From Fragilaria crotonensis (Eukaryota > Bacillariophyta > Fragilariophyceae > Fragilariales > Fragilariaceae): a stretch of 64,000 bases of DNA. Position 1 is the stretch's first letter; every line of letters starts with the position of its first letter. The notes under the pieces were generated by a model. The model saw only the letters and a list, made by a program, of their open reading frames with translations, was not told the DNA's origin and did no database searches. This document shows, in pieces, positions 7,896-51,549 of the stretch. The translations under genes were made by a program, and so were the position numbers. The stretch covers positions 110,597 to 174,596 of the forward strand of contig JAKSYS010000041.1 of the NCBI GenBank assembly GCA_022925895.1, read 5' to 3'.

Positions 7896-7903
7896 GTTGC
7901 TGT
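7896..7903. repeat. Target-site duplication, left (GTTGCTGT)
   Basis: The 8-bp word GTTGCTGT immediately precedes the CAGGGG terminus and recurs exactly at 26828-26835 immediately after the ACCCCTG terminus. A perfect 8-bp direct repeat abutting inverted termini is the footprint of transposon insertion. Confidence 0.9.
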
Positions 7904-7918
7904 CAGGGGTTGGAATAG

Positions 7919-9514
7919 CCCCAGACATTTCTGTCCTCTCCGGTAGGACACAAAGCAAAAAAAGATTGAAAACACGATTCAACTTTTGTCCTCTCAAAAA
8001 GCCAGCATCGAATTTGAGAGGACAAAAAGTAACCTTATAACCACGGGTTAATGAAATTTAACACGGCAAGTACCTTGTTAACATCGATCTCACCGCCTGA
8101 ATGCTACGAGCTTAGTCGCTGTATGTCACGGATTGCCCTGAATGCACCAATAGTACCTCCGGGGTACTTGTACCAGGGTTGATGCAGGAGCAAACGGGAT
8201 TTGACGAACACACACGGGTCCCAACGTTCTTCCAGTTGGATTGCATCCTCGTCGTGTCAATTTTTAGCGATAAACACGACACAAAAAAACGTATCACGAC
8301 TTGTTCTTCATATCCGTCCATACAATTGATCAGAAATTAATCGAGCAGCAGCGACGAAGATGATGAAGTCGTCGTGATGCCCGGAACAAGTGATGACGAT
8401 GGTGAAGTCGAAACGCAACGGACGAGACAGACAAGGAACAACGCTTCAGAAATGGTGTCGATTGCCTACAATAAACGCGACGCCTACTTCTCGATGCCAG
8501 AGCTTATTGCTAAGCGAATGAACCGAAGAATTGTTCACTATCCTTGTTTGGTGCGGAGACAATCAAGTTGTGTTTGGTGCTGTCGATTGGATCACTCCAG
8601 AGGAGGGCAACACAGCAGACACGGAAGGAAGACGACATGGTACTGTGCCGTTTGTGAAGTCGCACTGTGCAAAGTCAGGAGGTACAACGATCTCAGTTGC
8701 TTTGAACTTTTTTCACACCTCTCACGAATTATTCGACCCCTGCTGTGTTCAGGCACAGCAACTGAATGTTACAGTGCGCGGGCACAGCAACCGGCATCCT
8801 TTGCCACCTCGTCACCCTGCTGTGGGTGATGATCCAGATGCAGATCCGGATCAGGCGGTTCGTGCTGATCCAGATGCTGCACCTGTTGGTGACCTGTTGC
8901 CACCTGCTGTTGGTGCAAGCGTTGCTGCTGATCAGCATAATGACTCCCAGTCACAGCAGGATGACGAAGACTACTACTCAGCCCAGCAGGTGGATGTCGA
9001 GGTGCCTGAAGAAGAAAGCGACGATGCATTCACCGGTGATGACGACAATGAAGGAAGTGAACGTCCTGCTATTCGAAGGCGATTATCAACTAGCGTGATT
9101 ACTGTACCATTAAGATGGACAAGACAGAGTTGTTAGCTATGAAAAACAGTGGGGTCGCCGTTAAATTCAGAGAAAGCGCCCATGGTCATGTTGGACGATA
9201 GGTTTAACAAGAGAATTCAACATGTGAAAAATTAGAAATTGAATTTTGCACGAGGATTTTTTTGTGGAATTTGTCCTTATGCCGAGATCTGGGTAGGACA
9301 AAAGTTGCAATTCCACAGCGAAAACTACCTCGTTTTGCAATCACCGTAACTCCATCAATTTTGGCCCGAACAACAAAAGCGGGACAGATTTAGGAAGCTT
9401 ATGCCTTCACGAACAAACTGTACGCCTTCGTTTCTCATTGTTTCAGAAATAGGAAGTTAGCGAGTATCGCCAAATTTTGTCCTCTTTTTTGTCCTTAAAA
9501 TTTTGTGTCTGGGG
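7919..9514. mobile_element. Nested 1.6-kb DNA transposon (CCCCAGACA termini, ATAG duplication)
   Basis: Ends are CCCCAGACA at 7919-7927 and TGTCTGGGG at 9506-9514, a perfect 9-bp inverted repeat. ATAG is duplicated at 7915-7918 and 9515-9518. The right end of the host transposon carries the uninterrupted sequence GGAATAGTTA, so the empty site is visible. Near both ends are hairpins built on TTTGTCCTC/GAGGACAAA, for example at 7985-8031 and 9480-9500. It carries one ORF (8374-9136 region) without a recognisable transposase, so it is probably non-autonomous or from a family I do not know. Superfamily unassigned. Confidence 0.8.
8374..9136 (+). CDS. ORF(s) in the nested 1.6-kb element, unknown
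   Basis: Two overlapping frames cover this stretch. The upstream one (8374-8829) begins with an acidic segment (MMPGTSDDDGEVE). The downstream one (8531-9136, 201 residues) continues to an Asp/Pro/Ala-rich and then acidic tail with a basic patch (RPAIRRRLS). They may be one gene broken by a frame change near 8540-8700, since the first frame is the more plausible start and the second the more protein-like end. I recognise no catalytic motif. It could be the remains of a transposase N-terminal region or an accessory protein. Confidence 0.35.
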
Positions 9515-11128
9515 ATAGTTAAACTACCGGTTGTGGTATACCCGGTTTCCCGGTTTTCAACCGTACCAATACTGGCATTTTTAAAAAACCGGGAAACCAT
9601 TTGTGCCTTGGTGGTCATTTAACCAAATACTACCGCGCCACCCCGGTTATGACTATGGAAGTGTATAATTGAAAAAATTTCTTTAGCGTTGTATTATACT
9701 GTATTATAACTTATAACACATTATACCACGTGGTATAATACAACACTTCTGACAGTAGCCAGTAGCCCGCCGCAGGTGCAAATTTTTTTGACATGAAAAT
9801 TGTCTTTTTTAATGCAGACTTTATTACTTTTGGGTGATATGTTTGCTCTATAACTACTCATTTTCCAAGGCAAGCAGTTATCCTTTGAAATGGCAAAACA
9901 ATAGTTCAATCAAAGTGGTGGCAGAATGAAAACACAGCATAGAATTCCATTTATACATGATTGGAGTGTCTTTTGCAGGACGTGTTAGTTAGTATGGTGT
10001 GCCAACAAATGGTACTAGGTTTGCATTATTGTAGCTTTTAGTTCAGATATTTGAGTTTGGCTTTGTATCAAACTGTAATGCTGCGTAAAAGGGGAAATCT
10101 GAGGTCAGACTTTGGAGACAAAACAAACAACTGTCAGGGCTGCGTGTTGTTCGTGCATCAGTGGTGTTCACATCACTTCTCGACGTTAAGGACAACTCAT
10201 TCCCATTAACTTTTTGTGCCCATACCATGATGCTGCATCCCATCCATGTGCATTTTGCACTTAGATGGTGTAAAATCTGCTGCCAAGCTTGAAGATGCAG
10301 AATATGGACTGTAACCTGTAATCCTTTCACTGTTTGTGGCAAACAAGAGGAGGAGGCTATCGACTTTATCTGCCATGCATACCCAGTGGCTTTTGCCCAT
10401 GTCAAGCAATGAACAATCCCCAGCCACAACCGTTGTGGGATGCCTGCTAAGATGAAAATGAGAAGTCTGACTAAGGGATGCCAATCAGCTTCTGGCAGGA
10501 ATTGCAAATACCTTTGCGCTGCTGATGTTGATGACACTTGTCATGCTTTTGCACTAAGTACAACCATTGACTGTTGTGCAAGTCAATGCACAACCCTGTT
10601 GGACTTGCTATTCTTTCTGCTGATGTGCAGACTTGCAACAATGCATTCCAAAAGGTTGAACTGGTGGGATTTGGAAAACTAAGACTTGTCAGGGTGTGCT
10701 ATGCAGTCCTCACAGTGGTGCTGATGGCGCTCTTTTACCCTTTCTATTAGCTATGAAGCATCAGTTTTGCTTCCTATTGACTATTGTGCAGACAGCTATT
10801 CATCCTCCATCATGCACTGCTATTGTTGCAAGGTGTACCTCAGCAATCGGACTTGCAAAAAGCTAGCTTTGTCCAAGTTTGTGACCCTTGCAGTGGAAGT
10901 GTTGACGTCACCTTTATTATCTTGGGCTTAGATACCTTTTGAATAGAATTGTGCAACAGCAAGAAGTCAATTACACAAAGGAAATGGGCAGCACTAGTCC
11001 TAAAGAACTCCTCATACAAAATCATCATATCTGAATGGATTTGGCAACAGCAGTGTCACATCCAAAAAGACCCATGGGCTCTGTTGACGCGTACCTAAGA
11101 TGTAACACAAAGAAAAGTTAAGAAACAA
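9515..11128. other. Left subterminal region of the giant transposon, no gene seen
   Basis: The first 200 bases are rich in CCGG, ACCGGTT and runs of A or T, and include the palindrome TTATACCACGTGGTATAATA near 9722. The rest is moderately AT-rich, with scattered copies of AAGTCAATGCACAA also found in the tandem array that follows. The minus-strand open stretch at 10043-10537 shows no recognisable motif. Confidence 0.5.
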
Positions 11129-11837
11129 TGGCCATTATTGGAATTCTGTGCTGGTTGGATTTGCTGCCGGTTTGTGTGCTCTGATCACAGACACTGCATG
11201 GTACCTAGCAGAGTCTGTGGTCAGACTTGGAGATGCAGAAGATGATCCTGAAAAAGTTTCTTTCAGATGCATTGGATGTTCATGACACCCTAGGATTGTT
11301 TGTAGTGAGCATACTTATTGGTTGAAACACAAGTCAATGCACAAGCCCCAAAAATACAGGGTGCGAGGTCCCCTTTGTATTGCAGAATCTGAGGGCTGCA
11401 TTGGAGATGCAGGACAAATCTTCTGTCAAGGATTGTTAAGGGTGTATCATAAATGTTTTTGACACCCTAGGATTGTTTGATGTGAGCTTACTATATATTG
11501 GTTGAATCACAAGTCAATGCACAAGCCCCAAATATACAGGGTGTGGGGTCCCCTTTGTATTGCAAAATCTGAGTGCTACATTGGAGATGCAGAACAAATC
11601 TTCTGTCAAGGATTGTAAAGGGTGTATCATAAATGTTTTTGACACCCTAGGATTGTTTGTAGTGAGCTTCTTACTTATTGATTGAATCACAAGTCAATGC
11701 ACAAGCCCCAAATATACAGGGTGTGGGGTCCCCTTTGTATTGCAAAATCTGAGGGCTGCACTAGAAATGAAGAAAATATGTTCTGCCAGGGTTTGTCAAG
11801 TTTGCATTGATGATATCGACGATATCCTTTGATTGTA
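11129..11837. repeat. Left arm of inner inverted repeat, with three ~180-bp tandem units
   Basis: From GGAATTCTGTGCTGGTTGG (about 11139) onward this matches the inverse of 24590-25107 closely. Within it the block starting GACACCCTAGGATTGTTTG occurs at 11284, 11461 and 11641, giving units of 177-180 bases. The right arm has only two such units. Each unit also contains CAAGTCAATGCACAAGCCCC and TCCCCTTTGTATTGCA. Confidence 0.85.
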
Positions 11838-12701
11838 GTGGGGATATACACCCATTGACTAGTGTGCAATTCAGTGGGTAATTTGCCACAATTTGAGATA
11901 CAGGGCTTTCACCTAAATGATCATTCTGCAGTCAGATGTTAATATTCTGCAGAATTGATCTGTTGTGTTTTGATGAGTATGTATGGATTGTATTGATGGC
12001 ATCCTGAGATCCTCTCAACCTTTTATGCTTATTGACTTATTGAAGATTCAATTATGATGCCAAAATGCTAACAAAAAAATACGCAAAAATGATCAATACT
12101 CAATCAATTTTGGATTTTGAAAAAATCCAAAACTGGCATTTACTCCATCATCAAAAGCCTGAGACTCATTGAGTGAAGCTCCCACAACGATATTCGCTTT
12201 GCGAGTTAGTGTTGGTGTTAGCGACATAAGTTAACGTGAAATTTAGGATGCGATCACGTGTTATCTACTAGTGTTGTAGTTACACAAATCAGAAGCACTT
12301 TATGTTCTGAGCTGATTAGTTGCACTATAACAACCCAAGCATCAACTTCCGTTACCGGAACTTCTGTAAAGGAGTTTCAAGAGTTTGTTGATGGAGTAAA
12401 TGCCAGTTTTGGATTTTTTCAAAATCCAAAATTGATTGAGTATTGATCATTTTTGCGTATTTTTTTGTTAGCATTTTGGCATCATAATTGAATCTTCAAT
12501 GAGTCAATAAGCATAAAAGGTTGAGAGGATCTCAGGATGCCATCAATACAATCCATACATACTCATCAAAACACAACAGATCAATTCTGTGGAATATTAA
12601 CATCTGACTGCAGAATGATCATTTAGGTGAAAGCCCTGTATCTCAAATTGAGGAAAATTACCCACTGAATTGCACACTAGTCAATAGGTGTATATCCCCA
12701 C
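11838..12701. mobile_element. 864-bp foldback/MITE with TA target duplication
   Basis: The insert begins GTGGGGATATACACC and ends with its inverse, GGTGTATATCCCCAC. Its arms of about 310 bases (11838-12149 and 12390-12701) are near-perfect inverted copies around a loop of about 240 bases (12150-12389). TA flanks both sides (11836-11837 and 12702-12703). The right arm of the surrounding inverted repeat shows the single-TA empty site at 24588-24589. TA duplication is the hallmark of Tc1/mariner-type transposition. No transposase is encoded, so it must have been mobilised in trans. Confidence 0.88.
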
Positions 12702-12703
12702 TA

Positions 12704-15127
12704 CATCTAAGGGTGCCAAAACCAAGTCGGCTCTTGGATATGAAAAACCAATTATCTTTGATATGATAATTTTTTGTTCATAATTTTTACCTAAAATATA
12801 GGTAAAAACTTAGGACTAAAGAGCTTGTACATCATGTGTATGAAGCGGGTTTCCTCGTATTCCTGAACTCTGAAATTTATTTTTCCTGAAATTTTTCATC
12901 TCTTGCATAGGAGCTCATACTTTGCATTCCTGAGCTCCAAAATTTCAATTCCTGAATTTCACTGACTCATTTTTCTAACACTGGGTGGGATTCCTGAACT
13001 CTTGGACTCTAAATATATGAACTATACCACTTCTTCATTTGTGATCATGAATTTCAATTCCTGAATTAGATATTCGAAAGAAGAAGTTTGCTGTGTAGTG
13101 TGTATGAAGTAATCACCTCAGTAGTTCTGAGCTGACATTGTTCATATAATAGATGTTATTGTCGCTCATTTTAACTTTTGTTGGAGATTAGTTTTAATTG
13201 TGCCTATTCGTGTGGCTTTGATGAACCATTCTACTATTCATTACTAAGTGTCTGATCTATTCTAAACTGCCTCCACTTTCAATTCACTGTAGACAAGTTC
13301 AGGAGCAAGATGACTGGAGTAGTTATCATCCTCCTCATCAGAGTCCTCGTCAAATACATCAATGCACTTGTGTGGGCGTTTCTTACCCTTGTCATCAAAT
13401 TGTTTCCTGACCCCGGCCAGACTCCTTTTTCCTTCTGGACAGAAACATTTTAAGTAGTTCCTGGTTGAATGTTGGGGTGGTTGATTTCTTTCTATCATTC
13501 TTGATGGCCATGTATAATTCATCGTATTTCCTCATTCCCACCTGTGACCAACCACAGCCTCCCCATTATCATGAGCACCCTTGTTCCTGGAGAATGTGTA
13601 AAGTGGTGGCTGCCGAACATGGTATTGCAAAGATTGGTCAGAAGTTAGGATGTGGTTTTTCATTTCATTTAGTATCATAGTGTAACTTACGGGTAGGTTG
13701 TTGTTGTCCTCATCAGTCCATGTACCAATTCGCTGTTTCCAACAAGTGATAACAAAACAAGTCAGTTTCTTGTTGTTTGTTCTGTGACAAACCATTCGGA
13801 TAAACTTACCATTTTCTCTGTCTTAACTAATTCCGCGAACCACCTCTTCCCATAGTTGATCAGGCACAGCAAAATGAATGCTTCATCACTTATGGACAGG
13901 ATTTTCTTGCTCCATACTTTTCTGTCAGTTGTTGCACAGTGGTTCTCCATGTTGATAGTGTTATTCCACTTGCTGCTGCCGACAATGCATGGGGCATAGG
14001 TGTCTATGATTTGGGCATAGTAGCAGATATTATCCCTCATCTTGAGGAGGTAACTGGTTTCTTCCTCGCTTCCACTGTATAGGCTGTGTTCATACGTTCC
14101 TAAATTGGAAGTGAATCCTCTGGATGCAAGGTGTTTGATGTTGAATGCAAGTGAGTGTGAGTATGCTCGGGCTTTGGCAAAGTACACTCACTTCAATTCC
14201 TCACCTTTGAATTTCGTTTGCATGTTTTTTATTGCATTGTTCCGAAGATCAGTGTGTGTTTTTACAACTATTCTCCGCATCCCAAGCCACCAGTTTTCGG
14301 TTCCTCGAATGTTTGTGTGCTTCATGATAAAGCCACAAAGTGTTTTCTCATCTTCACTGAAATGAGAATGATAGTCTTTTTGATAGAACTTCCAAATAGA
14401 GAACACGTGTTTTTGATGCAAGTCTTGATCACACTGATTTGATTCTCTTCTGTATTTTCCGTCATGCTCATGTCCACTATGCTGCTTAGCCCTGGAACCG
14501 ATGATGTTAGTTGGCTGTCACTTGATTTCCGACTTTAATAGTTGAAGGTAGGGATGGTGGATTTCCGTATGCATGCTTCTGTCCTAGTTTTGCATCCATT
14601 TTCCGTGGCACTTCTTCCTCCTCCTCCTCCTCGTTGTCACTTTGAATCAGATCATTGGGATCTGTGGTCACTCGTTTTCACGCCTCTTATGAAGTCTCTC
14701 CTTTGTTTCCTAGAGCTGGGCTTTAAGGCAGTCATGCCTGCTGCTGTTTGGTGTGCCATTGATGCCATGGTTGTATTTGTGGTGCTTCCTTGTTGTGTGA
14801 AAAACTTTCCGATTGTGCGCCAAATTTTGAACACTGAAAATCCTGTTTGTGGGATAGTCTTTTTTGCCACCATTTGAATTTCATACCAAGTACCGAGTTG
14901 GTATGTAGGTTCTACACATTCATGCAGGGTTTTCAAATTTTGAATTCATACCACACCCCCCTTCATTTTTTTACATACACCAAAAATGTACCGAAAGTAA
15001 ATGTACAATTTGAATGCACGCTTTCCCGAACTTCTGTTTAGTGAATCTGTGTCCTGTCAATTTCAACACCTCATTTTCACTTCACTCGTCCTCTTCAAAA
15101 CCCTTTCTTCAAAACCTTCTCTTCAAA
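12704..15127. other. Internal non-coding region of the giant transposon
   Basis: About 12700-13020 continues the inner inverted repeat and carries several ATTCCTGAACT or ATTCCTGAGCT words, mirrored at 24390-24530. From 13260 to 14940 short open stretches occur on both strands (for instance 13262-13522, 13762-14187 and 14188-14421 on the minus strand), with protein-like but unrecognised translations. They may be remnants of a further minus-strand gene upstream of the transposase. Confidence 0.45.
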
Positions 15128-18070
15128 ATGTTGTCCTCGTCTGCTTCCTCAAAGGCACCCCTGCTCTTCTGTCAAAACCCCTTCTGCCTGAATTTCAACA
15201 AGAAACCCTTTTCCAATCAAGCAGCATATACACAGCATATTGATAGAAACATCGGGTGTTATAATTTCATTGTGAAGAAATCACACCATGCAGCAACACA
15301 TGGGGCTTCTGCTTCACACCGTCGCCGTCTTCATGAGGATGGGAATATCACATGCACAAGTAACAAGAGGCCTGCCCTTTTAAGGCGACATATGGTGAAT
15401 GATCCCCACATGGATTTTGATGGCACAGACAACCTTCTGCAGTTTCCGGCTGGCAATGGTGTGGAAGTTGAAAGCACTTCTTGTGAGGACATCGAGGACT
15501 GCAACAAAAGTGATGATTTGTCCATGTTAAGTGATGACCCAAACATTCTTACCTGTACGAATTCTGCACTTGATGAAGATGTGGAAGCCCCATCATTTCG
15601 TTCAAACTTCATGTATACTACCGATCAGAAGTGGACTGTTTCTCTCCTCAAAATCCTGGACCATGCCAATGCACCCGACTACACTTTTGGTCAAGTCCTG
15701 GAGTGGGCACGCTCTGCATCTGCTGATAATTATTCTTACAACCCAGTGGGTGGACTCTCGCGTGCCAAAAATGTTGATGCCCTGATCAACTCAGTTCGTA
15801 ATGGGAAAAGACTGCTTCCCTTTGTACGAAGAGTGGATGTACATCATGGCTCTCCATCAGATGTGATTTGTTTTGACTTCGCTTCACAGTTGCTAAGTTT
15901 GCTGCAAAATCCAAGCATTATGACTGCAGAAAACCTTGCCATCGATATCAATGATCCCCTGAAGCCCTACCACAAATTGAAAGGCAGCAATGTTTTGGGT
16001 GAGGCACTGTCCGGGAGTGTCTATCGCAAGGCGTATGATCGATTAATCACAGATCCTCAGAAGCAATTGTTTGTTCCAATCATCCAATGGATTGATCGTA
16101 CCTCTGTAACAGGGAATGATCGCTTTTCACTTAAACCCTACATGTTCACTCCAGCCATTTTTACAGAAAAATTCAGAAGGAGTATCAAGGCATGGGGCTA
16201 TCATGGCTTTCTCCCAAAGAGGAAGTCCTCATCAGCTCAGAAGCAGACACTTCGTATGGGCGATGCCATTCGTATCTATCATAAGGAGCTGGATGCTGTA
16301 TTGGAGACCTTTCGGAAATGTTCACCACAACTGTGTGGTGTTCATTTGCCAATTGGTCCAAAGGGTAGAATCTGTGTCGACATTGTCACATGTGTGTTGT
16401 TCATCATTCAAGATATGCAAGAAGGAGATATGCTGTGTGGTCGGTATGGTGTTCACACCAGTGGAATCCAACGCCCTCATCGGTGCTGTGATGTCAATTA
16501 TGATGATCTGAAGAACTGTGATGTCCATTGCAAATACCTGGTAGCCTCGGATATGGGTTTCATTGCCAGGAGTAATGATGATGATCTCAGGAAACGATGG
16601 TCTCAACATAAACTTGAAAATGCATTTGAACACATTGCCTTTGCTGACCCTGAGCGTGGAATCTTTGGGGCCACTCCTGTGGAGACAATGCATGCATTTC
16701 GGAAAGGTGTCATCGAGAAAGTAACAAAACTTATATTGGACAGTCTTCCAGCATCCAAGAAGGCTGCCTTTGATGACCTTGCAATAGCATTTCACAAGTC
16801 TCATCGCCAAACCTACCGAAAGGAGTATCCATCAACAGATTTCAGCAATGGGGTAACAAATTTGACAAAGATAACTGCATCAGAACGCGTTGGCCTCGTT
16901 TTTTTGTTTGTCATCCTCTTCCAATATGAAGCAGGATGGCAAATGATCCAAACATGTCTTGAGAAAAGAACAACTAAGAAGGTTCCTGAGGTCCTTGAAG
17001 TACTTGAATCTCTCCTTTGTTTCGATGCTTGGCTAAACCAGAGTCATTACTGGGAGACTACAAATCCAGCACATGTTGCAAATGAAATGAAGAAACATCA
17101 GGATTCCATTCGCAATTTCATGGATATGTGCAAACAGTCCATTCCCTTGAAAGTTGAGGGAAAGGAGGATGACAAGAAAAAGGGTAAGAAAAAGGGAACC
17201 ATCATAAGGAAGGAAGGACAGAAAAGCAATGCCGAGGATGCATGGAAGTTTCGAAATTCCATGAGTTGTTACACATTGTGGATGATATGTCTCGGTTTGG
17301 CTCTCCAGTGAACTTTTGTGCACAGCGTCCAGAATCACTTCTAATTCCTGCTGCAAAGCACCCTGGGAGACGGGCACAGAAGCGAATTGAGGGTTCTGCA
17401 TATGAACTTCAGGCAGCCCAACGTTTAATGTACTCCTTCATGATCGACACCATACACACGCGCATATGGGAGCAACCAGATGGTGATGCTGATGTACCCG
17501 ACAGCCACCATGATGATGAAACAACAAGGAATGGAATCTTTCAGAGCACCGGACAAGCAACATTTGGCTGTGTTTATCGATTCAAATCGAGTAAACAAAT
17601 TCAGTACAAAATTGAATGGGACACCAGAACTCACCGTGATTTACTTGCTCTTCCCTGGAGTTGATTGAGTTTCTTTTGATTCCTTTAAGGAATCCGACTC
17701 AATAACCTTTTGTACTGAATACAAACGAGATGTCCACACCTTCGATGTCATCCCTGCTATCAGTCCGATGGTCCCATACATGACTGGATGATAATTGACT
17801 TTGGGAACATGGGAAGTTTCCTGTCGTTTGGCTCTTGTAGTTGTTGTTGACTCACCCGAGGATCCGGACGAGAGATACCAACTGGTTGTTCAATCCACAA
17901 CAGAAGAAATTAAAGAACACGAGTCAACCCTGTTGAGAGAGTGGAAGTGGTCTCCAACATACCACCTTGTCTCTGGAAACACTGTCGTGGCCCCTGTTTT
18001 GTTATATCCATCTCACACAACAGTTCCACAGTTCTTGAGACAAAACCATATACAGAGTGGGCATCCAAAT
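15128..18070 (+). pseudogene. KDZ/Plavaka-like DDE transposase of the giant element, frameshifted
   Basis: The main ORF runs from ATG 15128 to 17311. The next part (about 17242-17664) is in another frame, and a third part (17795-18082) resumes after stop-containing sequence. At the N-terminus a C-x4-C ... H-x5-C finger (LFCQNPFC ... TQHIDRNIGC) resembles the zinc fingers that open such transposases. WIDRTSVTG (Asp codon at 16094) fits a first catalytic Asp. CGRYGVHTSG and a Cys pair follow. GATPVETMHAFRKGV (about 16668-16712) fits the conserved C-terminal block. The frame change at about 17245-17250 joins ...AEDAWKF to KFHELLHIVDDM and is explained by one missing T. C-terminal residues typical of the family continue in the later pieces. 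Superfamily assignment is by motif memory and uncertain between KDZ, Plavaka and CACTA-like. Plus-strand expression in the element would converge on the minus-strand cargo gene ending at 18075. Confidence 0.65.
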
Positions 18071-18074
18071 TCGC

Positions 18075-21000
18075 TTAGCTAGCTTGTTGCATCAAAGTAC
18101 CTAAAGGAAACATGTTGCCATCGTCTGTTCGAGCCCTCACAATCTTTGGACCATCACCATCGGCTCGCCGCTTGTTTGAATCTACCCAAAGAGTAAAACT
18201 TGCCTTCCTGTTGATGTCTGGGCCATCATAAAAAAAGAGAGTTGCCTTCCGAAAGCTCACAAACTCATTCTTCACAGTTGAGGTTGAGCAGCAATAATCC
18301 AAGGCCTCCTTGCAGAGAGGAATTGCAACCACTTCATTTGCATCATACACATACCCACTGTGAATGGTAACTGCATGTGAACCATTTCCATCGGATTCAT
18401 TGAGCACAGCCAATACCATTGTGTCCTTCATTTGTTCTTGAAGGAGTTGCCAATCAAACATGTGTGGTCTCTTCAGAACTTTTCGGGTGATCCATGTAGG
18501 CAGCTGAGTTTCAGCAAACTGTCCCACCTTTCGAATGGCATCAACAGTACCTCCTCTTAGGTGACTTTCACCAAAATGGTTAATGGATTTGGCAGCATTA
18601 TCAAAGCCAATTGCATATAAAGCACTGGCCAATGACTTTGAAACACAAAGATCTTCACCTTCGGATTGTACAAAGTGCACCTGGGGTGCTTCAGGAACCT
18701 GCAGCTTGGGATATTCATGCAAATGTGATTCTTTGAAATCGCCCACTGGTATGTCAACAAATCCACACCTCATACGCTTGACCTCCTCCAAGAATCCTGT
18801 CTTAAATTGTTTCACAAAGTCTTCATCAGTTCGAATGGGCTGTGTTTCTCCATGAAAGATGACCTCCCAGTAACCAGGGGCCTGTATCTGCTTCATATGT
18901 TTACCCCTGGTGAGTCACTGTTGCTCCTAAGGACCTTTTCGACTGAGGATCAAACACCCATTGTGTCTGTGGGTGAACGTATTGCAGCTTATGTACCTTT
19001 TAGTATGAATGAGGATGGTTTCCTTCAGGAACAGGTACAAATCCATCCGTGTTTCCAAGGTTAATGACATGTTGGATTACCCTTTGCATAATCGGCATCC
19101 TTGATCCAGTCTTTGGAAACAGCAATTTTTTCTTCCTTCATTTCCAACTTTCCTTCTTTTGTCTTAACATTGTAAACCAAAAGTGCAACAAAGGTATCTT
19201 CACGTGGGTTGTACTTGAGGCCATGCACCATGGCCTCAGTGCCAAATGTCCATTCCAATTCAAATGCCCTTTGAATTTCTTCCTTTCCTTCTTCATAAAC
19301 TTTATTTCTTTCGTGTACTGCTCTCTGTAATCATCCTTCGTCTTTTTCTTCTTACATCCATCAATTTTTCTTTGCATCTCGGCCCGCTTCTTTTCCACAT
19401 TCTTCAGGTGATCTTTGGTAGAGCTCCAACCCCAGTACAAAAATCTGTCCTCCACAAATTTGTTCATTGCTGCTTCATCCCTAAGAAGCACTGGTCGATC
19501 TTCACCGTCATCTCCTTTCTTTCGCCACTTTCTTCTAAATTTCTCAACTTCATTGTCTGATACCAATGTTTTGTACCTACTTTCTCCAAAAGGTAATTTC
19601 GGGCATTCATCAGGTACATGAATGTCTCCATAACCATACGTACGAGGAGGCCCACCTTTCCATACCCTGCTTGCTCGGGGAAGCTTAGCAGGATCATTCC
19701 ACCAGGCTTCGTTGAGATCAATATCTTCTTCCTGTTGTTCAGGTCCATCAGCAGATCCAGATGGTTTGAAATCGGCAACATCCTCCTCTGATGGCAAACT
19801 CCGTTCATTGGCATTTGGCAAAACATCCTCCCTGGAAGAAACATCCTCCAACGTAACACTGTCGTCCTGTGAGGTCACACAGTCTTCCTCTGTGGCATTG
19901 GATGGTACTGGGATCCAGGGCCACGTGAAAGTCTGAAGTTCCAACTTCAGACTTCCGTAACAGGGATCCATCAAATGATTTGAATTCTGACGTTTTGGCA
20001 CTGTGACGTGTTGAAATTCTGCAATGCGATCAAACAGCAAAAACCACTGTGCTTTCATCGCATGCAAGTAGGAAATGGAAGCCGAATCATCCCTTTTAAA
20101 CAGTTTTGTGAATATTCCCTGTGGAAAACAGCAAATGTGCTCCTTCGATTTCACATCAGTTGACATCTGGATTTCCATGCGATCGCCTAAACATTTCGTT
20201 GTAGGCTGCAACTCCATCTTGAGTCCCAATGATATCTCGGAGAATTATTGCAATTGCAGCTATAATCCCAATCCCACAGCTATGGCCATCTTCTTGCAGG
20301 GAAGAACATCATTATCCAACACCCTCAATGCAGGGAATGTATTGGTGCCCTTCATTTGCCCAAAAGGTTCGTCCGAACGGACTGAGCCACTTCATCTTGT
20401 TTGGAGTGCTGCTATCATTTGCACTGTTTTTCCTTTGCTCCTGGTAACTGAAGGCAAGGTTCAGGAACCAGACAACACCGACATTGTTTGGAATTTTCTC
20501 GTGCCGGAGGGATGAAGACTGCAATAGCGAAAAAACATGTCCGGAGGCATGATACATCATCCGTGGCAGCCACAACGTCTCCAGCATTGAAAACAAATGT
20601 TGCCCCCAATGATCGTGCTGAGATTCGAGGAAACACAATCAACCTTTTCTGCAGAAGCCCTGGATAGAACAACAGGACTTCCTTCACAACACGATTCATT
20701 TGGTCATCATACTTCTGGTAAAGTTCTTCCTTAGAACTTCCATACCTTTTTTTTCACAAGGGCAAGACATTCTGCATGATCGGCTCCATTGGCTACCATC
20801 AAGTCGTTTTCGTACTTCTTTGCAGATAGATGACGTTGAAGACGTGCAAAGCAACCTTGAATTACCTGCATGTCGTCAAAAGACAGGATTGCAACTGATG
20901 TGTGATACCTGCCATCCCTCATGAGGAGTGAAGTCATCATTTGCAGCTCACGGGTGGCCATCCAAGTTTTCCCACCACTTTTGCTATGATCAAGCCTTTC

Positions 21001-22400
21001 CTGTGATCCCATTTCTCCAAAACCACGCAACTGGTCAGGCAGAACCAGGTCACCAAATGGTGGTGGAAGAAGGTTGTTCAAATAGTCCAGACCGGTAAAT
21101 GCCTCTTCCAGATCTGCATTTGTCAGCAATGCTCCACTTGCAACATCATCTTGGAGATCGATTGTTGATGAAGGGTATTGGCACCATACAAATGTTTTTC
21201 TGGTGTTGCTACCATCATTCCGTGCACTGACTGTCTCATTGTTGCTCTGCACAATCTCCAAAACATCACTGCTCACGAGGGAAGGGGAACCACCACTCGA
21301 TTTTGCGACTATATTGATCTTGCTTTCTTCCTCTGACTCAACAACAGCACGCGGGGGAACCATCATTTGTTGCACTGATCACATCACTGTTGCTTTCAAC
21401 AACCTCGACAGCAGCACTGTTAGCAGCACTGTTCAAAAGGGAACCGGAAGAAAGTTTCATCAGAGGGATAATGCAGTGCTCCTCAGACTCTGGTACAATC
21501 CATGCAAATCCACCTGTGGTCTCGTCCATTAAGGTGTCGGCAATTGTCTTGGGAAGAAACTCAATGCCAGTTGTGTCTTGGAGATTGATTTGACGGAACC
21601 CACAGGCTTGGTAGAATTCCTTTGGCTCGTCATGGGGACACTGCAAGTAGATGTCCACACCATGTAGGCTCTCCTGACATTGTGACAGCTCACGGTGAGA
21701 CAATAATAAAAAAGTTGAATGCTTGATGAGCATTACTAACATCAGACGCCCAAACCCTTGCCGTCTCCAGGATGTAAGACCGGATGGCTTCCGTGATTCA
21801 GATTCTGCAATCAACAGCCAAAGCACCAACGACGCACCAACTTCATCTCCAATTCCACTTCAAATGTAATGCATGCAATAACAACAGAGTCTTGGCACCC
21901 TATGACAGATTTCTTGAAGGGGTCATCTTCTTTCCAAGAGGACGTCCCACAATCATTATTGATGGATCAGAATTCACAGCACGATCGATAGAGCTCAAAT
22001 CAGCTTCTGTAGAATTGAATGATGTGCTGTAGAATTGCCTTGCAGCTTCTGTCGCCCACTTAAACCTTGTCGCCTCAGCTTTGTTTGTTTGGACACGTGT
22101 GGGGTACAACGTAACTACCTTGAATTGCCAAATTTCATTGGAGTCCTCTCTTCGTTCTGAGTCATAATCTTGGACAACGGGAGGTCTTGAAACCAAGAGC
22201 TGAACATGTGTAGTGGAAACTCTGAAACAGCACGGCGGGTGATGATAAAAGACTCGAACTTGCGATCTGAATTGTTTATTGACCTTTGTTCCTGGAGGTG
22301 GTGTGAATTCATCCATACCATCACGGAACAGGTACGCCTTATCCATAGGGACTCCTCCTTGCTGACGAGAGACAGGGGACAGTGATGGAACCTCTGCCAT
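18075..22400 (-). pseudogene. Transposon cargo gene: GNAT-like plus cysteine-peptidase-like polyprotein, several frame changes
   Basis: Five or more minus-strand open stretches follow one another in order: 22400-21900, 21829-21338, 21375-20731, 20699-20415, 20229-19138, 19258-19061 and 18896-18075. Frames change between them and no clear introns are seen. A start at ATG 22400 (MAEVPSLSPV) is most plausible. The second segment has GNAT acetyltransferase signs: TSWRRQGFGRLM (the acetyl-CoA loop) and FYQACGF about 45 residues later. The middle segments are acidic, then Lys-rich coiled-coil-like (KKRAEMQRKIDGCKKKK). The last segment (273 residues) has a Cys-His-Asp arrangement: DLCVSKSLASALYAIG (Cys84), GSHAVTIHSGYVYD (His174, Asp185), as in papain-fold peptidases. 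Whether it was one protein or two cannot be seen. Large plant DNA transposons often carry SUMO/ubiquitin peptidases; this would be an analogous but different cargo. Confidence 0.55.
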
Positions 22401-22523
22401 TTTGTTGGTTGAAATATGAATAATCCTCCAACTGGTGTGCGTGTATACAACTCTTGAGCATGCGAACAGACAACTGACAAAAAGAACCAATACCGGTAGA
22501 TCAATCTGGTTTGATTCACTCAA

Positions 22524-22780
22524 ATCAATGAGAATCTCTCGCAGATGACCGAATATTGGATTCTAGATGACAGATTGCCTTACAAACTCAATCAAGCACG
22601 CACACAAGACGAAGTACTTATTCCCTCAATTAACAACAAAATGAGAAGCACAACACTTGTCGACAAGGATCCTAATTATGAAAGGAGAAGAAGAGGAGGA
22701 TGTGAGATTGAAAGCTGGAAAATACAATCATGTGCAATGACACAACGTCAACAAGAAAGACTGGAGTACAGTACCAGCAC
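22524..22780. other. Spacer upstream of the cargo gene
   Basis: AT-rich DNA between the presumed start of the minus-strand cargo gene and the GTAC minisatellite. It probably holds the promoter of the cargo gene; no clear element is visible. Confidence 0.35.
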
Positions 22781-22789
22781 AATGTTGTA

Positions 22790-23515
22790 CGGAAGCCTCC
22801 AAGGTACTGTCGTGGTGCGAACTCGTCCCAGTACTTGACAGTACCATGAGTACAGTACGTAGACAATGGTACAGGCACAACAGGAGTACCTCAACAAATC
22901 AATCAGTTGCTCACAATGATGGAAACGACGATTCAACACAACATTCTTGTGTTGATAGGACAAAACAATCAAAAACTCACGAACAAGAACGACAGTTAAG
23001 TGCCCTTGTTAGTGGAAAGGAAGAAGAAGCAAAGGGCAAGGGGACAAGCACAGAATGAAACATTCAATGCGGTGTTGGGCATGACACCAAGTTGTGACAT
23101 CGACAACCGTACAGCAGGCACAAGGTAGTATTGTAATAAACCGTAGGCCCACCAAGGTACTGTCATACTCCCAGTACTTGATAGCAACATGAGTACAGTA
23201 CGTAGACAACAGTACATGCACAAGGTAGTGTTGTACCGTAGCCTCCAAGGTACTGTCGTATTCCCAGTACTTGGCAGTACCATAAGTACGGTACGTAGAC
23301 CACGGTACAGGCGCGACGTAGTGTATTACCGTAGCCTCCAAGGTACTGTCGTACTCCCAGTACTTGGCAGCACCCTAAGTACGGTAGGTAGACGACTGTA
23401 CAGGCGCGACGTAGTGTATCACCGTAACCTCCAAGGTACTGTCGTGCGAACTCGTCCCAGTACTTGACTGCACCCTGAGCACCGTACGTAGACAACGGTA
23501 CTGGCACAACGGGAG
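22790..23515. repeat. GTAC-rich 92-bp minisatellite
   Basis: Blocks beginning CCAAGGTACTGTCGTA recur at about 23152, 23244, 23336 and 23428, a 92-base period, with an earlier separated copy at about 22798. Each unit carries several GTAC words (GGTACTGTC, CCCAGTACTTG, GTACGTAGAC). Open reading frames on both strands across it are by-products of the repeat. Confidence 0.85.
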
Positions 23516-24589
23516 TACCTCAAAACTCATTCGACCATCACCATGATGGAAACATTCAATCAACACAACAATCAACACGAAAAAAAGCACATTTGCAGTC
23601 TTACCACTTAAGACTGCAATGTCTTGTGGGTGGGAAAGGACGAAGAAGGAGCGAAGATGCCAAATAATGGAGCATCAATGTGGTGTCGGGCATGACACCA
23701 AGTGGTGGAGTGCTCAACGAACGAAGTGTGAGATGTGACACTTCCCGCAAAAAAAATCACGTACGATTCTACTAAAGACAATACTGTGGCTGAAAAAGAA
23801 TTAATTCCTTGTAGAAATATACAGCATGCACTGGTATTGGTGCCAAAGAATTAATCAGTACATACTATCGCCTACAATTCTACGGTTTGTTGTTGAAAAC
23901 ACAAGATCACGTAGTACGTAGCATAGTGTCATAGGAGTACTCGCATGATACAATACTGTACTAAAATTATACGCTACCACCATACCGTAGTACACAAAAC
24001 ACAGCGCTATAGTAATGAAAGTACCGTACACAGTACCACACTACCATACACACAGACCACGCCGTAGCTACCATACTGTACACCACCGCACCATACTAAA
24101 CGTACTGTAGCAGGCACCGAACACCATGCACCATGCACCAGACACGCCCATAGCTACTTGTACAACGTACAATGTACAGCGTATAAGCAACAACGAACCA
24201 TTGCGCTAGTACGACGGTAGTATCCCAGCTGACAGCACTGTAAAAACCGCTGTATACTGTACACTGTACGGCACAACCAATAGTCCACCCACGATACACC
24301 ATGCTACTCCAGTATTTCGTACAAAACACGTACAGTACTCGGTGTTTTATGTGCATCGAAATAATGAAGAAAAAAGCTCAGGAATAATACTGCAGTAGTT
24401 CAGGAGCAAAAAAAATTCTTCATAAAAATGAGGAAACAGCAAATGTCGGAATCCTGAACTAAATAAATAAACCAGAAAAAAACTTCAGGAATCCTGAACT
24501 AAATATGGGAATCCTGAAATTTTTCCAATAAATATGATAAAAAATTCTTGTATCAACTATGGTACTTAGTTTTGGCACCCTTAGATGTA
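23516..24589. other. AT/GTAC-rich internal region running into the right inner inverted repeat
   Basis: No gene seen. 23930-24340 is packed with GTAC, TGTAC and CACCATGCACC words. 24380-24540 holds GGAATCCTGAACT-type words, the inverse of those at 12850-13010. The empty TA site for the 864-bp element lies at 24588-24589. Confidence 0.55.
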
Positions 24590-25107
24590 CAATCAAAGGA
24601 TATCGTCAATATCATCAATGCAAACTTGACAAACCCTGGCAGAACATATTTTCTTCATTTCTAGTGCAGCCCTCAGATTTTGCAAAGGGGACCCCACACC
24701 CTGTACATTTGGGGCTTGTGCATTGACTTGTGATTCAACCAATAAGTAAGCTCACTACAAACAATCCTAGGGTGTCAAAAACATTTATGATACACCCTTT
24801 ACAATCCTTGACAGAAGATTTGTTCTGCATCTCCGATGTAGCACTCAGATTTTGCAATACAAAGGGGAACCCGCACCCTGTATATTTGGGGCTTGTGCAT
24901 TGACTTGTGATTCAACCAATATGTAAGCTCACTACAAACAATCCTAGGGTGTCATGAACATCACCAATGCATCTGAAAGAAACTTTTTCAGGATCATCTT
25001 CTGCATCTCCAAGTCTGATTGCAGACTCTGCTAGGTACCATGCAGTGTCTGTGATCAGAGCACACAAACCGGCAGCAAATCCAACCAGCACAGAATTCCA
25101 TTGCTGC
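24590..25107. repeat. Right arm of inner inverted repeat, two ~178-bp tandem units
   Basis: Inverse of 11139-11835. CCTAGGGTGTC occurs at about 24766 and 24945, giving two units where the left arm has three. It ends near CACAGAATTCC (about 25090), after which left and right sequences no longer match. Confidence 0.85.
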
Positions 25108-25199
25108 TTATGATGATCCTGCATCATTCAGCACCATGGAACCAAGCTCCTTCTTGGCCAAGCCTGAACCTGTCCACTTTGCAGATGCATGACAATGAA

Positions 25200-25750
25200 T
25201 GTGATTCCTTAGGCTTCAAACTGGGGACAAGCGATTGCCATTTTGCTTCACCTTGGACTGCAACCTAAATTTCGAACCAGGTTAAGAGTGACAACTGCTC
25301 AACAGGTTTTTGTCATGCAGTGCTATAAATGCATGAGCATATTCTCAGATGCATGACAATGATTCTATCACAGCACTGTTTGCAATGAATGTGATTTCTA
25401 GGGCTTCAAACTGGGGACAACTTTCATTTTGCCTTACCTTGGGCAGCAAATGCAATTCATGACAAGGACATGAGTGACAGCTGCTCAACAGGTTTTTGTC
25501 ATGCAGTGCTTCAAATTCTTGTGTCTCTGATCAGATGGATGATAATGATTCTATCACAGAACATTTTCCAATGAATGTGATTCCTTAGGCTTCAAACTGG
25601 GGACAAGCGATTGCCATTTTGCTTCACCTTGGACTGTAACCAAAATTTCGAACAAGGTCAAGAGTGACAACTGCTCAACAGGTTTTTGTCATGCAGTGCT
25701 ATAAATGCCTGAGCGTATTCTCAGATGCGTGACAATGATTCTGTTGCTGA
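25200..25750. repeat. Three ~185-bp tandem repeats
   Basis: The block starting GGCTTCAAACTGGGGACAA recurs at about 25210, 25400 and 25585. Each copy continues to CTGCTCAACAGGTTTTTGTC and ATGACAATGATTCT. It lies outside the inner inverted repeat and has no counterpart on the left. No coding signal. Confidence 0.8.
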
Positions 25751-26827
25751 TCATTCTTTGATGAATATGACTTCTCAGGTACCAGCCACTTAGCACTGAT
25801 ACGGGCAATAGTGCTACTTTTGCACCATCATGCCTCATAACAGCACCACAGCACCACAACCATCATCATCACGTGTAAAGATAACAGGAATTGGACCTCC
25901 TTAATGTGTGTCTTTCTTATTGGCAACATTGTGATTATTCTTCCCTGACTGGTGGTGCAGGGCTCCTCTTTTCTGCACACCAACAACGAGTATACACTAT
26001 ACACAACACACCTGATTCTTAGTAGTCACATTTTTGACTACTGATTGATTACCCCACAATGCTGGTAGTCAGTGGTCATCAGCAGTCAGTCATGATCAGT
26101 TGTTGATCAAGTTTTGACTATATACTTGGCCCCGTGATTAGCAAACCCTGCCTGCATTACCATGAAACCCTAACTCTAAACATGATTCCAATTATACAAT
26201 TTTACAACACCCTCAAAAATGGAGTGGTATTATACCACGGTATAATACAATTTGTACTATACCCATACGAAACATACACATCCATAGTTATGACTGACCT
26301 GATACCGGGCCCAATCATAACTAACTACTGCTGTGGCACAGTATACTACCACGTTGTGGTATTCTGGAAAACCTCCTGGTTATCGAGGATACTGGGTCGG
26401 ACGAATTTCATGTGAATGACATGAGAGCACAATTTTATTATATTTAATGGAGGTATCCGGCTTGGCGACCTCTAAATACTTGCACATATATACATTGCAG
26501 TGCAAGAATTTGTGGTTATCATATCATTTGTTGATTCTTACGACCACAGTCACCTCTTTGATAGAACTTTACAGGGGTACAGTAACAAATCATTCAGTAC
26601 AATCTGTACTCACGCTACAGTATCTGAACCGGTTTTAACCGGTATGACGATTGTGGTACCGGTTGACCGACCGGAGGTGAAAGAAGGCTATGGTTATACT
26701 AATACTAAACCGTGGTGAAGCCAGCGATGCAATTGACCAAAAAGTTGCCACCCCCACAACCGGTACACCAACCGCTGCTACATTTTTGTCCCGGTTAGTA
26801 TATTTGGTATAACTATTCCGACCCCTG
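25751..26827. other. Right subterminal region of the giant transposon
   Basis: Contains the palindromic word TATTATACCACGGTATAATA near 26228. It is followed by CCGG/ACCGGTT-rich sequence from about 26630 to the ACCCCTG terminus at 26821-26827. This mirrors the composition of the left end. Open stretches here have no recognisable motif. Confidence 0.55.
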
Positions 26828-26835
26828 GTTGCTGT
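26828..26835. repeat. Target-site duplication, right (GTTGCTGT)
   Basis: Exact copy of 7896-7903, directly after the inverted terminus. Confidence 0.9.
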
Positions 26836-39396: not shown

Positions 39397-41799
39397 ATGT
39401 CTTGTACACACAACGCCGACATTGGCGCCATCCTGGCAGATTGCGCGAACGAGACCATCGCCGTGGGGAGCCGATCCCTTTTCGTGTGCCATTGCCGAAG
39501 TAAGTGTTCACTCGTGATGATAATTGTCACGTTCCTCCTTAACAGGCATCCAACGCATGAACAAATGCGAATTGTCATTGACTGTGCATCGCGTGGGATG
39601 TCATGGTTGCTTATCCAACTTGTCATTGACTGTGCATTGGCTGTGATGTAGTTGTTGATAATCACGAAGCACCCATGCGTCCCTTCATTTTTTTGAAATC
39701 CCAGGCGTTGGATTGTGACAGCATGTGTATCTGCAATTGATCTTATTCTAACACCATGTCTCTCTCTTCTTCTCTAGGCTACATGTGGAATTGCGGAGGG
39801 TGTCAACACCTTCTTTCTTTTGTTTGCTGTAAGTTACTCTGCGCCATCCGGAATGGTTCTTCACTTTCTCCAATGTTTGTCGGCACTTGGGATTGGACCT
39901 TGTGTGTTATGGTATGGTTATGTCGATTGAGCTATCGCAGAAGCTCATTCAATATTGATGTGATGTCACAGCATCTCGGCACGAGCTTACTCGACAAGGG
40001 TTTTCCGTCCCGTGCGGGATGACATGGACCTTGTGATCGTCTGAAAAGATCTTTCACCCCGTTTTCGTGAGGAATTTTGTTCGACCTCAAATTTTCGAGA
40101 TCTTCGGATTTCTGGATGCAGGGTGTCTTTCGTGCGTTTCTTGGTGTCCCTGGTTGTTGTGTGGTACTACTGTACTCTGGTACTTTAGAGTACGGCATTC
40201 CCTTACAATGTACGAATACCGTGTCTTGGCGCAAATCGAAAATTGCCTTTCTCGTTTTCGTATGTGCCTCGCGCTAAATTTTTCTGCCATCGCGAGTTGA
40301 GTGACTCTGCATTACCGCCGAACGTCCGCGACGTGAAATGAACTCACGTAATCAATCTTCTACTATGAATACAGGCTGCCCTAGTGTTTACGATGCAGGC
40401 TGGCTTCGCCATGCTTTGTGCTGGATCTGTGCGCCAAAAGAATGTTAAGAATATCATGCTTAAGAACCTGCTTGATGCCTGCGGTGGTGCCCTCGGGTTC
40501 TACACTGTTGGTTACGGATTTGCATATGGTTCTGCAAGTGGAGACTACACGAGCGCCAGGTTCATAGGCAACTACAACTTCTTTCTCATGGGCCTCGAAA
40601 GTGGTTACCAACTTATCACATGGTTCTTCCAGTTTGCCTTCGCCGCTACTGCTGCCACCATTGTCGCCGGTACCGTCGCCGAGCGTTGCAAGATGGCTGC
40701 GTACCTGTGCTACTCCGTGTTTCTGACCGGATTCGTGTACCCTGTCATTGTGCACTCCATTTGGTCAGCCGATGGATTCTTGGTTGCCTTTGGTCCCTTG
40801 GAGGACAAGTTCCGCGGCATTGGAGTGATTGACTTCGCCGGGTCGGGTGTTGTGCACATGACCGGAGGTGTCACGGCCTTCATTGCCGCCATTGTTCTGG
40901 GGCCACGAAGGGGGCGCTTCTACGACGAGGATGGCAACCCTCTGGAGACCCCTGCAGTGTGGCCTGCGCACTCTGTGGCGCTTCAGATTCTTGGAACCTT
41001 CCTGCTTTGGTTCGGATGGTACGGATTCAACCCCGGCTCTGCACTCTACATCGCCAACACAACTTCCGCTTCGGTCTCTGCTCTCGCTGCCGTTACTACC
41101 ACCATTGCCGCTGCATCCGGATGTGTTTCGGGAATGTTCCTTGATACTATCATTGAAACCATCTCAACTGGTGAGGTTTCCTACGATCTTACCATGGCCA
41201 TGAATGGTTGCCTCGCCGGTCTTGTTGCCATTACAGCGGGGTGCTCCAGTGTCGATCCGTGGGCCGCAGTGGTCATTGGTGTGATTGCTGGATGGGTCTA
41301 CTATGGCTTCTCTAAGCTCTTGATCAAGCTGAGGATCGACGATGCCGTTGATGCCGTTCCAGTGCATTTGGGTAACGGAATGTGGGGTATGATTGCTGTT
41401 GGGTTCTTTGCCAACCCTGCCCACACTAACAACGCTTACAGCGCGGAGCTCGCGGGAGTCTTTTACGGCAGTTGGGACCTCCTCCTCAATCAGATTGTCG
41501 CCATTTGCTGGATCATTGGATGGGTCGGAGCCACCATGACCCCATTCTTCATCGTTCTTAAGATGGTCGGCATGTTCCGTGTCGATGCTCTTGAAGAAGA
41601 CGTTGGTCTTGACATTTCCCACCATCGTGGTGCTGCGTACGACCTTAGTGGTCCTCACCCTGATGATATCGAGAAGCACATGGAGGTGCAAGCTTCGAAG
41701 CATGGCAGAGTGGAGGTCCCCAAGGAAGTTGCTGAGGCTGCGGAGACCAACTACGTCAAAGCCGAGTCCTTTGAGATTGACGAGGAAGAAATTGCTTAA
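39397..41799 (+). CDS. Ammonium transporter A (AMT1-type), three exons, exon 1 frame change
   Basis: Exons 39397-39499, 39778-39828 and 40375-41799; introns start GTAAGT and end AG (CTCTAG, ATACAG). The spliced protein is about 525 residues, with 11 expected membrane helices. AMT signs: the DFAGSGVVHMTGG signature with the first pore His, the second pore His in PVHLGNGMWG, FGWYGFNPGS, and the conserved cytosolic C-terminus EEDVGLDISHHRG used in trimer control by phosphorylation. Family members import ammonium across the plasma membrane. Exon 1 matches exon 1 of gene B, but a G run near 39461-39466 carries one extra base (GTGGGG), which shifts the frame; without it the exon is 34 codons and phase-compatible. 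So it is either a sequence error or a damaged start. Exon 3 is nearly identical to gene B over long stretches, indicating a recent tandem duplication. Confidence 0.92.
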
Positions 41800-51226: not shown

Positions 51227-51227
51227 C

Positions 51228-51549
51228 GAAGTGGAAATCCACTTCGGCTAAGTGAAATTCCACTTCCCTGAAGTGAAATTTCACTTCCCCGAAGTGAAAT
51301 TCCACTTCACCGAAGTGGAATTCCACTTAGGGGAAGTGGAATTCCACTTAGCCGAAGTGAAATGCAATTTTCCCGAAATGAATTCATACCGAATTGTGTA
51401 GGCGACACGTGTGTCAATCGCATTGTGAGGAAGTGGAATTCCACTTCGGGTAAGTGAAAATCCACTTCGGTGAAGTGGAATTCCACTTCGGGGAAGTGGA
51501 ATTTCACTTAGGGGAAGTGGAATTTCATTTAGGGGAAGTGGAATTTCTC
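51228..51549. repeat. Palindromic ~22-bp tandem array
   Basis: Two blocks (51228-51366 and 51428-51549) of units whose core is the palindrome AAGTGGAATTCCACTT, separated by variable 2-4 bases (CGG, AGGGG, AGCC). A non-repeat spacer of about 60 bases lies between the blocks. Each unit could form a hairpin. It encodes in translation runs of EFHF/PEVEF, which are artefacts. Confidence 0.9.

Follow-up and report, generated by a model that had tools for sequence, protein, structure and literature searches.

The sequence analysed here, hereafter the window, comprises 64,000 nucleotides of the diatom Fragilaria crotonensis (G000:C361:110597-174596) and was searched against the 62.1-Mb assembly of 881 contigs to which it belongs. 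Near its left end lies an 18.9-kb segment which holds a miniature inverted-repeat transposable element (MITE), two inserts A and B, and an 11.9-kb element C that carries a predicted Plavaka transposase gene and a second, convergent gene (Table 1). A sequence-only reading had described this segment as one 18.9-kb transposon. The transposon ends, the 8-bp target duplication, the nesting and a large two-gene transposon inside were all borne out, the outer ends and their duplication to the base, but the outer ends are not those of the two-gene transposon. We conclude that the segment is almost certainly a stack of four different transposons nested by successive insertion. Two of the loci read, L012 (C427:85739-86414) and L013 (C258:62183-62863), carry one and the same MITE insertion between identical flanks, in opposite orientations, and represent one site on two contigs; allelic or duplicated contigs are therefore probably present in the assembly, and the copy counts given below may be inflated.

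The outer ends were found to belong to a short element. The 15-mer CAGGGGTYGGAATAG occurs in the window only at the two outer ends when up to 2 mismatches are allowed (shuffle expectation 0.16, none of 100 shuffles reaching 2). When the right-hand 210 bp were used as a genome query 21 matches were obtained, 12 of which, the window included, covered bases 1-210, and the eleven full-length matches outside the window were 86%–91% identical. Seven other copies with both ends were present in the loci read, six of 676–684 bp and one (L011) of 1262 bp, while the window copy is interrupted twice. The 8-bp flanking repeat was exact in 6 of these 7 copies, L012 and L013 being counted separately though they share one site. 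Complete copies align to separate segments of the window, and the window MITE has therefore been split twice. Once A and B are removed together with one copy of each target duplication, 683 bp remain, and the joined sequence aligns end to end with L010, L014 and L015 at 90.4%–90.8% identity (3–4 gaps).

The longer outer terminus CAGGGGTYGGAATAGTTA was found at 30 places in the genome, 28 of them exact (reversed-pattern control, 2). Nine pairs were spaced 676–684 bp apart and others 1.3, 2.6, 2.7 and 4.2 kb, with one of 26.0 kb on contig C98, and no pair approached 18.9 kb; that of the window stands outside this list, its left end being cut after 15 bp. On C98 (12217-38215) the MITE body is broken at about position 130, and this pair is possibly another heavily interrupted MITE copy, or two copies. 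A composite transposon, all 18.9 kb of which is mobilised by the CAGGGG ends and in which A, B and C are cargo, is very improbable. Since the outer ends and their 8-bp duplication are undamaged, a matching hAT-type transposase could in principle still cut there, but each of the inner elements has ends and a target duplication of its own, uninterrupted copies of the MITE and of B exist, and no terminus pair has the required spacing. The 680-bp copies and the empty sites rule out a single 18.9-kb element.

Insert A entered the MITE at a point 15 bp from one end. Two relatives with both ends, L007 and L008, are flanked by exact 4-bp duplications (TTAT and ATAA, respectively), and the longest open frame of A, 204 residues, gave no Pfam match.

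Insert B measures 4747 bp in the window when C is left out, and matches L061 and L062 at 91%–95% over larger blocks. Together with L063 these are the further complete copies (6327, 6759 and 4218 bp, respectively), all with the same ends, and the termini TATGG..CCATA were accompanied by an exact 8-bp duplication in all four copies, the window's included. L063 resembles the window B only near both ends. No recognisable genes were found in family B, the longest open frame in L061–L063 being 102–150 residues. The inner inverted repeats, the 180/186-bp arrays and the 93-bp minisatellite which had been reported in the window are present. The sequence-only reading had assigned them to the 16.5-kb core of a single element; the inverted repeats and arrays are in fact part of family B and the minisatellite part of family C, and both families arrived later in the small element which owns the outer ends. 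The inner inverted repeats were also considered as the ends of the Plavaka element and ruled out, being part of family B. The array of about 186 bp spans 3631-5918 in L061, 3675-6346 in L062, 2380-3810 in L063 and 25193-25742 in the window; its length varies widely between insertions, and B is therefore a transposon carrying a satellite-like array.

The large two-gene transposon is C. It measures 11.9 kb, its ends (CATCTAAGGG..) are not the outer ones, and its duplication is of 2 bp rather than 8 bp. At the position of the C insertion L061 and L062 read unbroken CCCCACTACAATC, whereas the window reads CCCCACTA, then C from CATCTAAGGG to CCCTTAGATG, then TACAATC. That B and C together make up a single 16.6-kb transposon, which duplicates 8 bp on insertion and has C as its coding core, is hardly credible: the pair does have terminal inverted repeats (TIRs) and an exact 8-bp duplication, but none of the three complete B copies read contains C, C is found elsewhere between different flanks, and within B it is bounded by a 2-bp duplication of its own. 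We therefore ruled out the 16.6-kb element on the B copies without C.

As an element of its own C is abundant in the genome. Its terminal pattern (termini CATCT..AGATG) occurred 120 times with up to 2 mismatches, and a reversed-pattern control not at all. Among the 100 matches listed, out of these 120, there were 36 inward-facing pairs, 14 at 11.8–12.0 kb, 14 at 6.7–6.9 kb and 8 of other sizes, and all 14 pairs of 11.8–12.0 kb lay on contigs with a transposase match. An exact 2-bp duplication, not fixed in sequence, flanked 9 of 11 C insertions (the window and ten others). The left 600 bp gave 41 matches, 39 of which began at base 1 and the other two at bases 3 and 14. In 28 of 32 loci compared, several of which cover the same copy, identity to the window was 98%–99.6%; the more diverged were L018 (97.5%), L020 (93.9%), L031 (91.8%) and L092 (93.2%).

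Two variants were noted. C-type copies on C69, C347, C518, C2, C703, C286 (16007-16070) and C327 match just the first 66 bp of window 22600-23600, which indicates at least two versions of the right arm in family C. The 6.7–6.9-kb class with C termini is found on C34, C42, C154, C186, C364, C402, C482, C511, C549, C563, C599, C658, C694 and C702. None of these 14 contigs gave a transposase match, the transposase scoring having covered 59 of 551 candidates. Because five members (C34, C42, C511, C658, C702) carry the left arm at 92% and the contigs are without a transposase match, this class is likely to be a non-autonomous sister family of C. C364 stands apart within it, with a left arm at 99% and a second-gene match.

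The transposase of C begins as a 765-residue open frame, continues in a second frame (17188-17667) and then in a third, with frame changes near 17.2 kb and 17.66 kb. PF18759 was also found in the relatives L034, L035, L038 and L022 (36.0–46.1 bits). Distant relatives in the same genome have the gene in a single frame (L034, 967; L035, 1038; L036, 893; L038, 969 residues), and L044 has it in two. D317 was present in 5/5 aligned rows with a residue, and D424, D429 and E581 in 6/6, which suggests that the D-D-E acidic residues are kept, the candidate catalytic residues being among these four. When viral contigs were scanned with the transposase alignment one locus was found, L097 (IMGVR_UViG_3300049043_000356), at 53% identity over query residues 19-525. 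Its Plavaka frame runs into unrelated sequence and stands beside an open frame that looks piggyBac-like by eye, and L097 is probably a chimera, a stray insertion or a host fragment.

Taken together these boundaries, target duplications, empty sites in uninterrupted copies and family copies trace a nested series of events. A hAT-like MITE of about 680 bp entered the GTTGCTGT target with 8-bp duplication. Later the 1.6-kb A entered the MITE near one end and the repeat-rich B the MITE body, and last the 11.9-kb Plavaka-type C entered B with duplication of TA. We infer the order MITE, B, C, which follows from the nesting itself and with which divergence from the relatives read is consistent (MITE about 9%, B 5%–9%, C 0.4%–2.0% in most copies). 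C would move by cut-and-paste, its DDE transposase acting on 24-bp TIRs, and the MITE, A and B would have been moved by transposases encoded elsewhere. Copies whose ends lie elsewhere, which the sequence-only reading had named as grounds for giving up its single transposon, were found for most of the 18.9 kb. Exact outer ends with a target duplication thus tempt one to a misreading: they are not proof of one giant transposon, and it is the copies elsewhere in the genome which settle the matter.

Several observations weigh against the nested stack. One of the seven MITE copies, L015, has no matching 8-bp duplication, and the outer-terminus pairs are not all 680 bp apart. The empty outer allele was not seen in the assembly, where the 400-bp left flank matched only itself. 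Two of the 11 C insertions (L064/L065 and L080/L081) are without a matching 2-bp duplication. Both genes of the window C copy are broken into several frames, and this copy may be unable to move itself. On this last point a 2.7-kb alignment of 12 C copies was used to count private changes at columns where at least 10 copies agree. Seven copies, the window among them, had 0 substitutions and 0–7 indel columns, and L023, L028 and L042 had 2–5 substitutions and 7–19 indel columns; substitutions exceeded indels only in L018 (34 and 9) and L020 (128 and 37). The aligned copies point to family C being very young. Private indels are more numerous than private substitutions in the majority of copies; indel errors made when repeats were assembled are therefore a live alternative as the source of the frame breaks, and we do not call the window copy dead.

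Table 1. Features of the nested segment and their positions in the window.
Feature	Position	Strand	Details
8-bp target duplication of outer MITE, GTTGCTGT	7896..7903 and 26828..26835		exact match
Outer MITE, piece 1, terminal 15 bp CAGGGGTTGGAATAG	7904..7918	-	terminus recurs elsewhere in the genome between other flanks
Insert A, 1596 bp	7919..9514	.	ends CCCCAGACA...TGTCTGGGG; 4-bp duplication ATAG (7915-7918 / 9515-9518)
Outer MITE, piece 2	9519..9653	-	MITE positions ~532-674 align to 9654-9512; 9515-9518 and 9646-9653 are target-site copies of A and B, respectively
Insert B including C	9654..26286	.	TIR TATGGAAGTGTAT / TATGGATGTGTAT; 8-bp duplication GTTATGAC (9646-9653 / 26287-26294)
Family B inner inverted repeat, left arm, 180-bp tandem units	11139..11837	.	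partner 24588-25100; also in L061, L062
Family B foldback arms, 356 nt	11834..12705 (11834-12189 / 12350-12705)	.	shared with L061, L062
C, Plavaka-type DNA transposon, 11,884 bp	12704..24587	+	2-bp duplication TA (12702-12703 / 24588-24589); empty site in L061, L062
C left TIR CATCTAAGGGTGCCAAAACCAAGT	12704..12727	+	
Predicted Plavaka transposase, 765-residue open frame	15014..17311	+	PF18759, E 3.2e-10, 40.2 bits (cut-off 26.3)
Second gene of C	18075..22562	-	convergent to transposase; several frames
Second gene, C-terminal predicted papain-like piece	18075-18914	-	
Second gene, middle pieces	20734-21240, 20529-20747, 20189-20494	-	
Second gene, GNAT-like piece	21383-21835	-	
93-bp minisatellite	23152..23505	.	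part of family C
C right TIR CATCTAAGGGTGCCAAAACTAAGT	24564..24587	-	
Family B 186-bp tandem array	25193..25742	.	longer in L061, L062, L063
Outer MITE, piece 3	26295..26827	-	minus-strand end CAGGGGTCGGAATAG at 26813-26827; MITE positions 1 to ~540 at 26827-26287

The gene pair is the most interesting part of C. The second gene accompanies 42 of the 48 Plavaka loci found in the genome, and is convergent to the transposase in 19 of the 20 loci at which the best piece is less than 70% identical. Papain-like cysteine peptidases are expected to show the order Gln/Cys/His/Asp-Asn. In the C-terminal piece Q182 and C189 were present in 7/7 aligned rows with a residue, H275 in 8/9, and D286 and N288 in 8/8, several rows coming from closely related families; the order is that expected, and this domain is predicted to be a papain-like peptidase. 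Pfam GNAT models reached at best 18.4 bits on the second gene (E 0.0022), below the curated cut-off of 23.6. GNAT-type models matched at one place, four of them in L096 and one in the window piece (E 0.007). The middle of the gene (L096:1459-2220), considered for Ulp1/C48, gave no match by sequence to Pfam, NCBIfam or PDB. A structure model of the GNAT/middle region had a predicted local distance difference test (pLDDT) score of 44, too poor for use. Searches of PDB sequences with the second gene, and a scan of viral contigs with its C-terminal alignment, returned no matches and no locus, respectively.

As the second gene is kept across divergent Plavaka families we infer that it is part of the machinery of C. 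Passenger DNA captured once and carried along outside that machinery is an unlikely account. It would agree with the 6 of 48 transposase loci that have no second-gene match nearby and with the broken gene of the window copy; against it the gene lies inside the TIRs of C, keeps its convergent orientation in nearly all of the diverged loci, and retains its Cys, His and Asp/Asn in nearly all aligned rows. This conservation indicates long-term selection. Our most likely guess for a second gene that belongs to the machinery is a helper which would process or modify the transposase, or host chromatin or ubiquitin-type proteins, through its papain-like peptidase and acetyltransferase-like domain. We consider doubtful, but worth stating, the stronger proposal that this lineage consists of obligate two-gene elements in which the protein of more than 1,400 residues from the convergent gene counters host silencing, e.g., by cleaving or acetylating chromatin or ubiquitin-like marks, as a counterpart of the fungal TET/JBP dioxygenase. 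Should transposition or escape from silencing depend on this gene, it would represent a transposon helper of a new kind. The two-gene Plavaka lineage deserves follow-up.

Elsewhere the window holds genes for a protein with four helicase-associated stretches, a tricorn-domain protein and a condensin subunit, and a group of three ammonium transporter genes that together span about 14 kb (40384-41799, 43560-44933 and 53166-54707). Two neighbouring blocks of 21-bp near-palindromic repeats (CGAAGTGAAATTCCACTTCGC) lie at 51227-51545.

When compared with known systems the outer element, which we take to be a hAT-type MITE from its ends and duplication length only, resembles such MITEs in its 8-bp target duplication, its short TIR starting CAGGG and its size of about 680 bp. 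The duplication and the CAGGG-type TIR were present in 6 of the 7 other both-ended copies as well as in the window copy, and the longest open frame in copy L014 is 91 residues. The ends of B fit those of IS3EU elements, which have TAYGG..CCRTA termini and 6-bp duplications (PMC12730594). B was left unclassified because, unlike IS3EU, it has 8-bp duplications in four of four copies and no recognisable gene.

Plavaka, named in Iyer et al. 2014 (as cited in PMC11075540), is placed in the CMCT clade with PlavakaA and PlavakaB (PMC12730594). Fungal elements are reported in PMC11075540 and PMC9674265, a green algal one is already in print (PMC12633428), and in an ichthyosporean Plavaka elements border gene clusters as large as 50 kb (PMC11244446). 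Some fungal PlavakaB carry a TET/JBP dioxygenase (PMC12730594), whereas the second gene of C is peptidase/GNAT-like with no sign of that enzyme. Literature searches for a gene of protease or acetyltransferase type in Plavaka and EnSpm elements gave nothing on Plavaka with such a gene, as judged by titles or abstract openings. The excerpts of PMC12730594, PMC11244446, PMC12633428, PMC11075540 and PMC9674265 mention no such second gene for Plavaka, and neither of the words protease and acetyltransferase occurs in PMC12730594. Ulp1-type peptidases have a precedent among cut-and-paste transposons, since Ulp1 occurs 21 times in a paper on Ginger DNA transposons (PMC2836005).

For Plavaka of the CMCT clade, a C(2)C motif and an H(3-4)H motif are described between the second D and the E (PMC12730594). 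In our alignment the second C was present in 6/6 rows and the first in 3/6, with S in one and H in two, while the invariant H551 and H554 are spaced by 2 residues rather than the published 3–4. PlavakaA makes 2-bp target duplications, and PlavakaB has duplications of 2–3 bp and CATCA..TGATG ends (PMC12730594). The termini of C share 4 of 5 letters with the latter and, because CATCT..AGATG differs from CATCA..TGATG, C was provisionally filed by its sequence as Plavaka and not as PlavakaB. It is like Plavaka in that PF18759 scored above the cut-off, the acidic residues are kept, and its 2-bp duplications are those of PlavakaA and, at 2 or 3 bp, of PlavakaB. The locus thus reveals a seemingly young, many-copy Plavaka family with a conserved second gene, probably outside the fungi.

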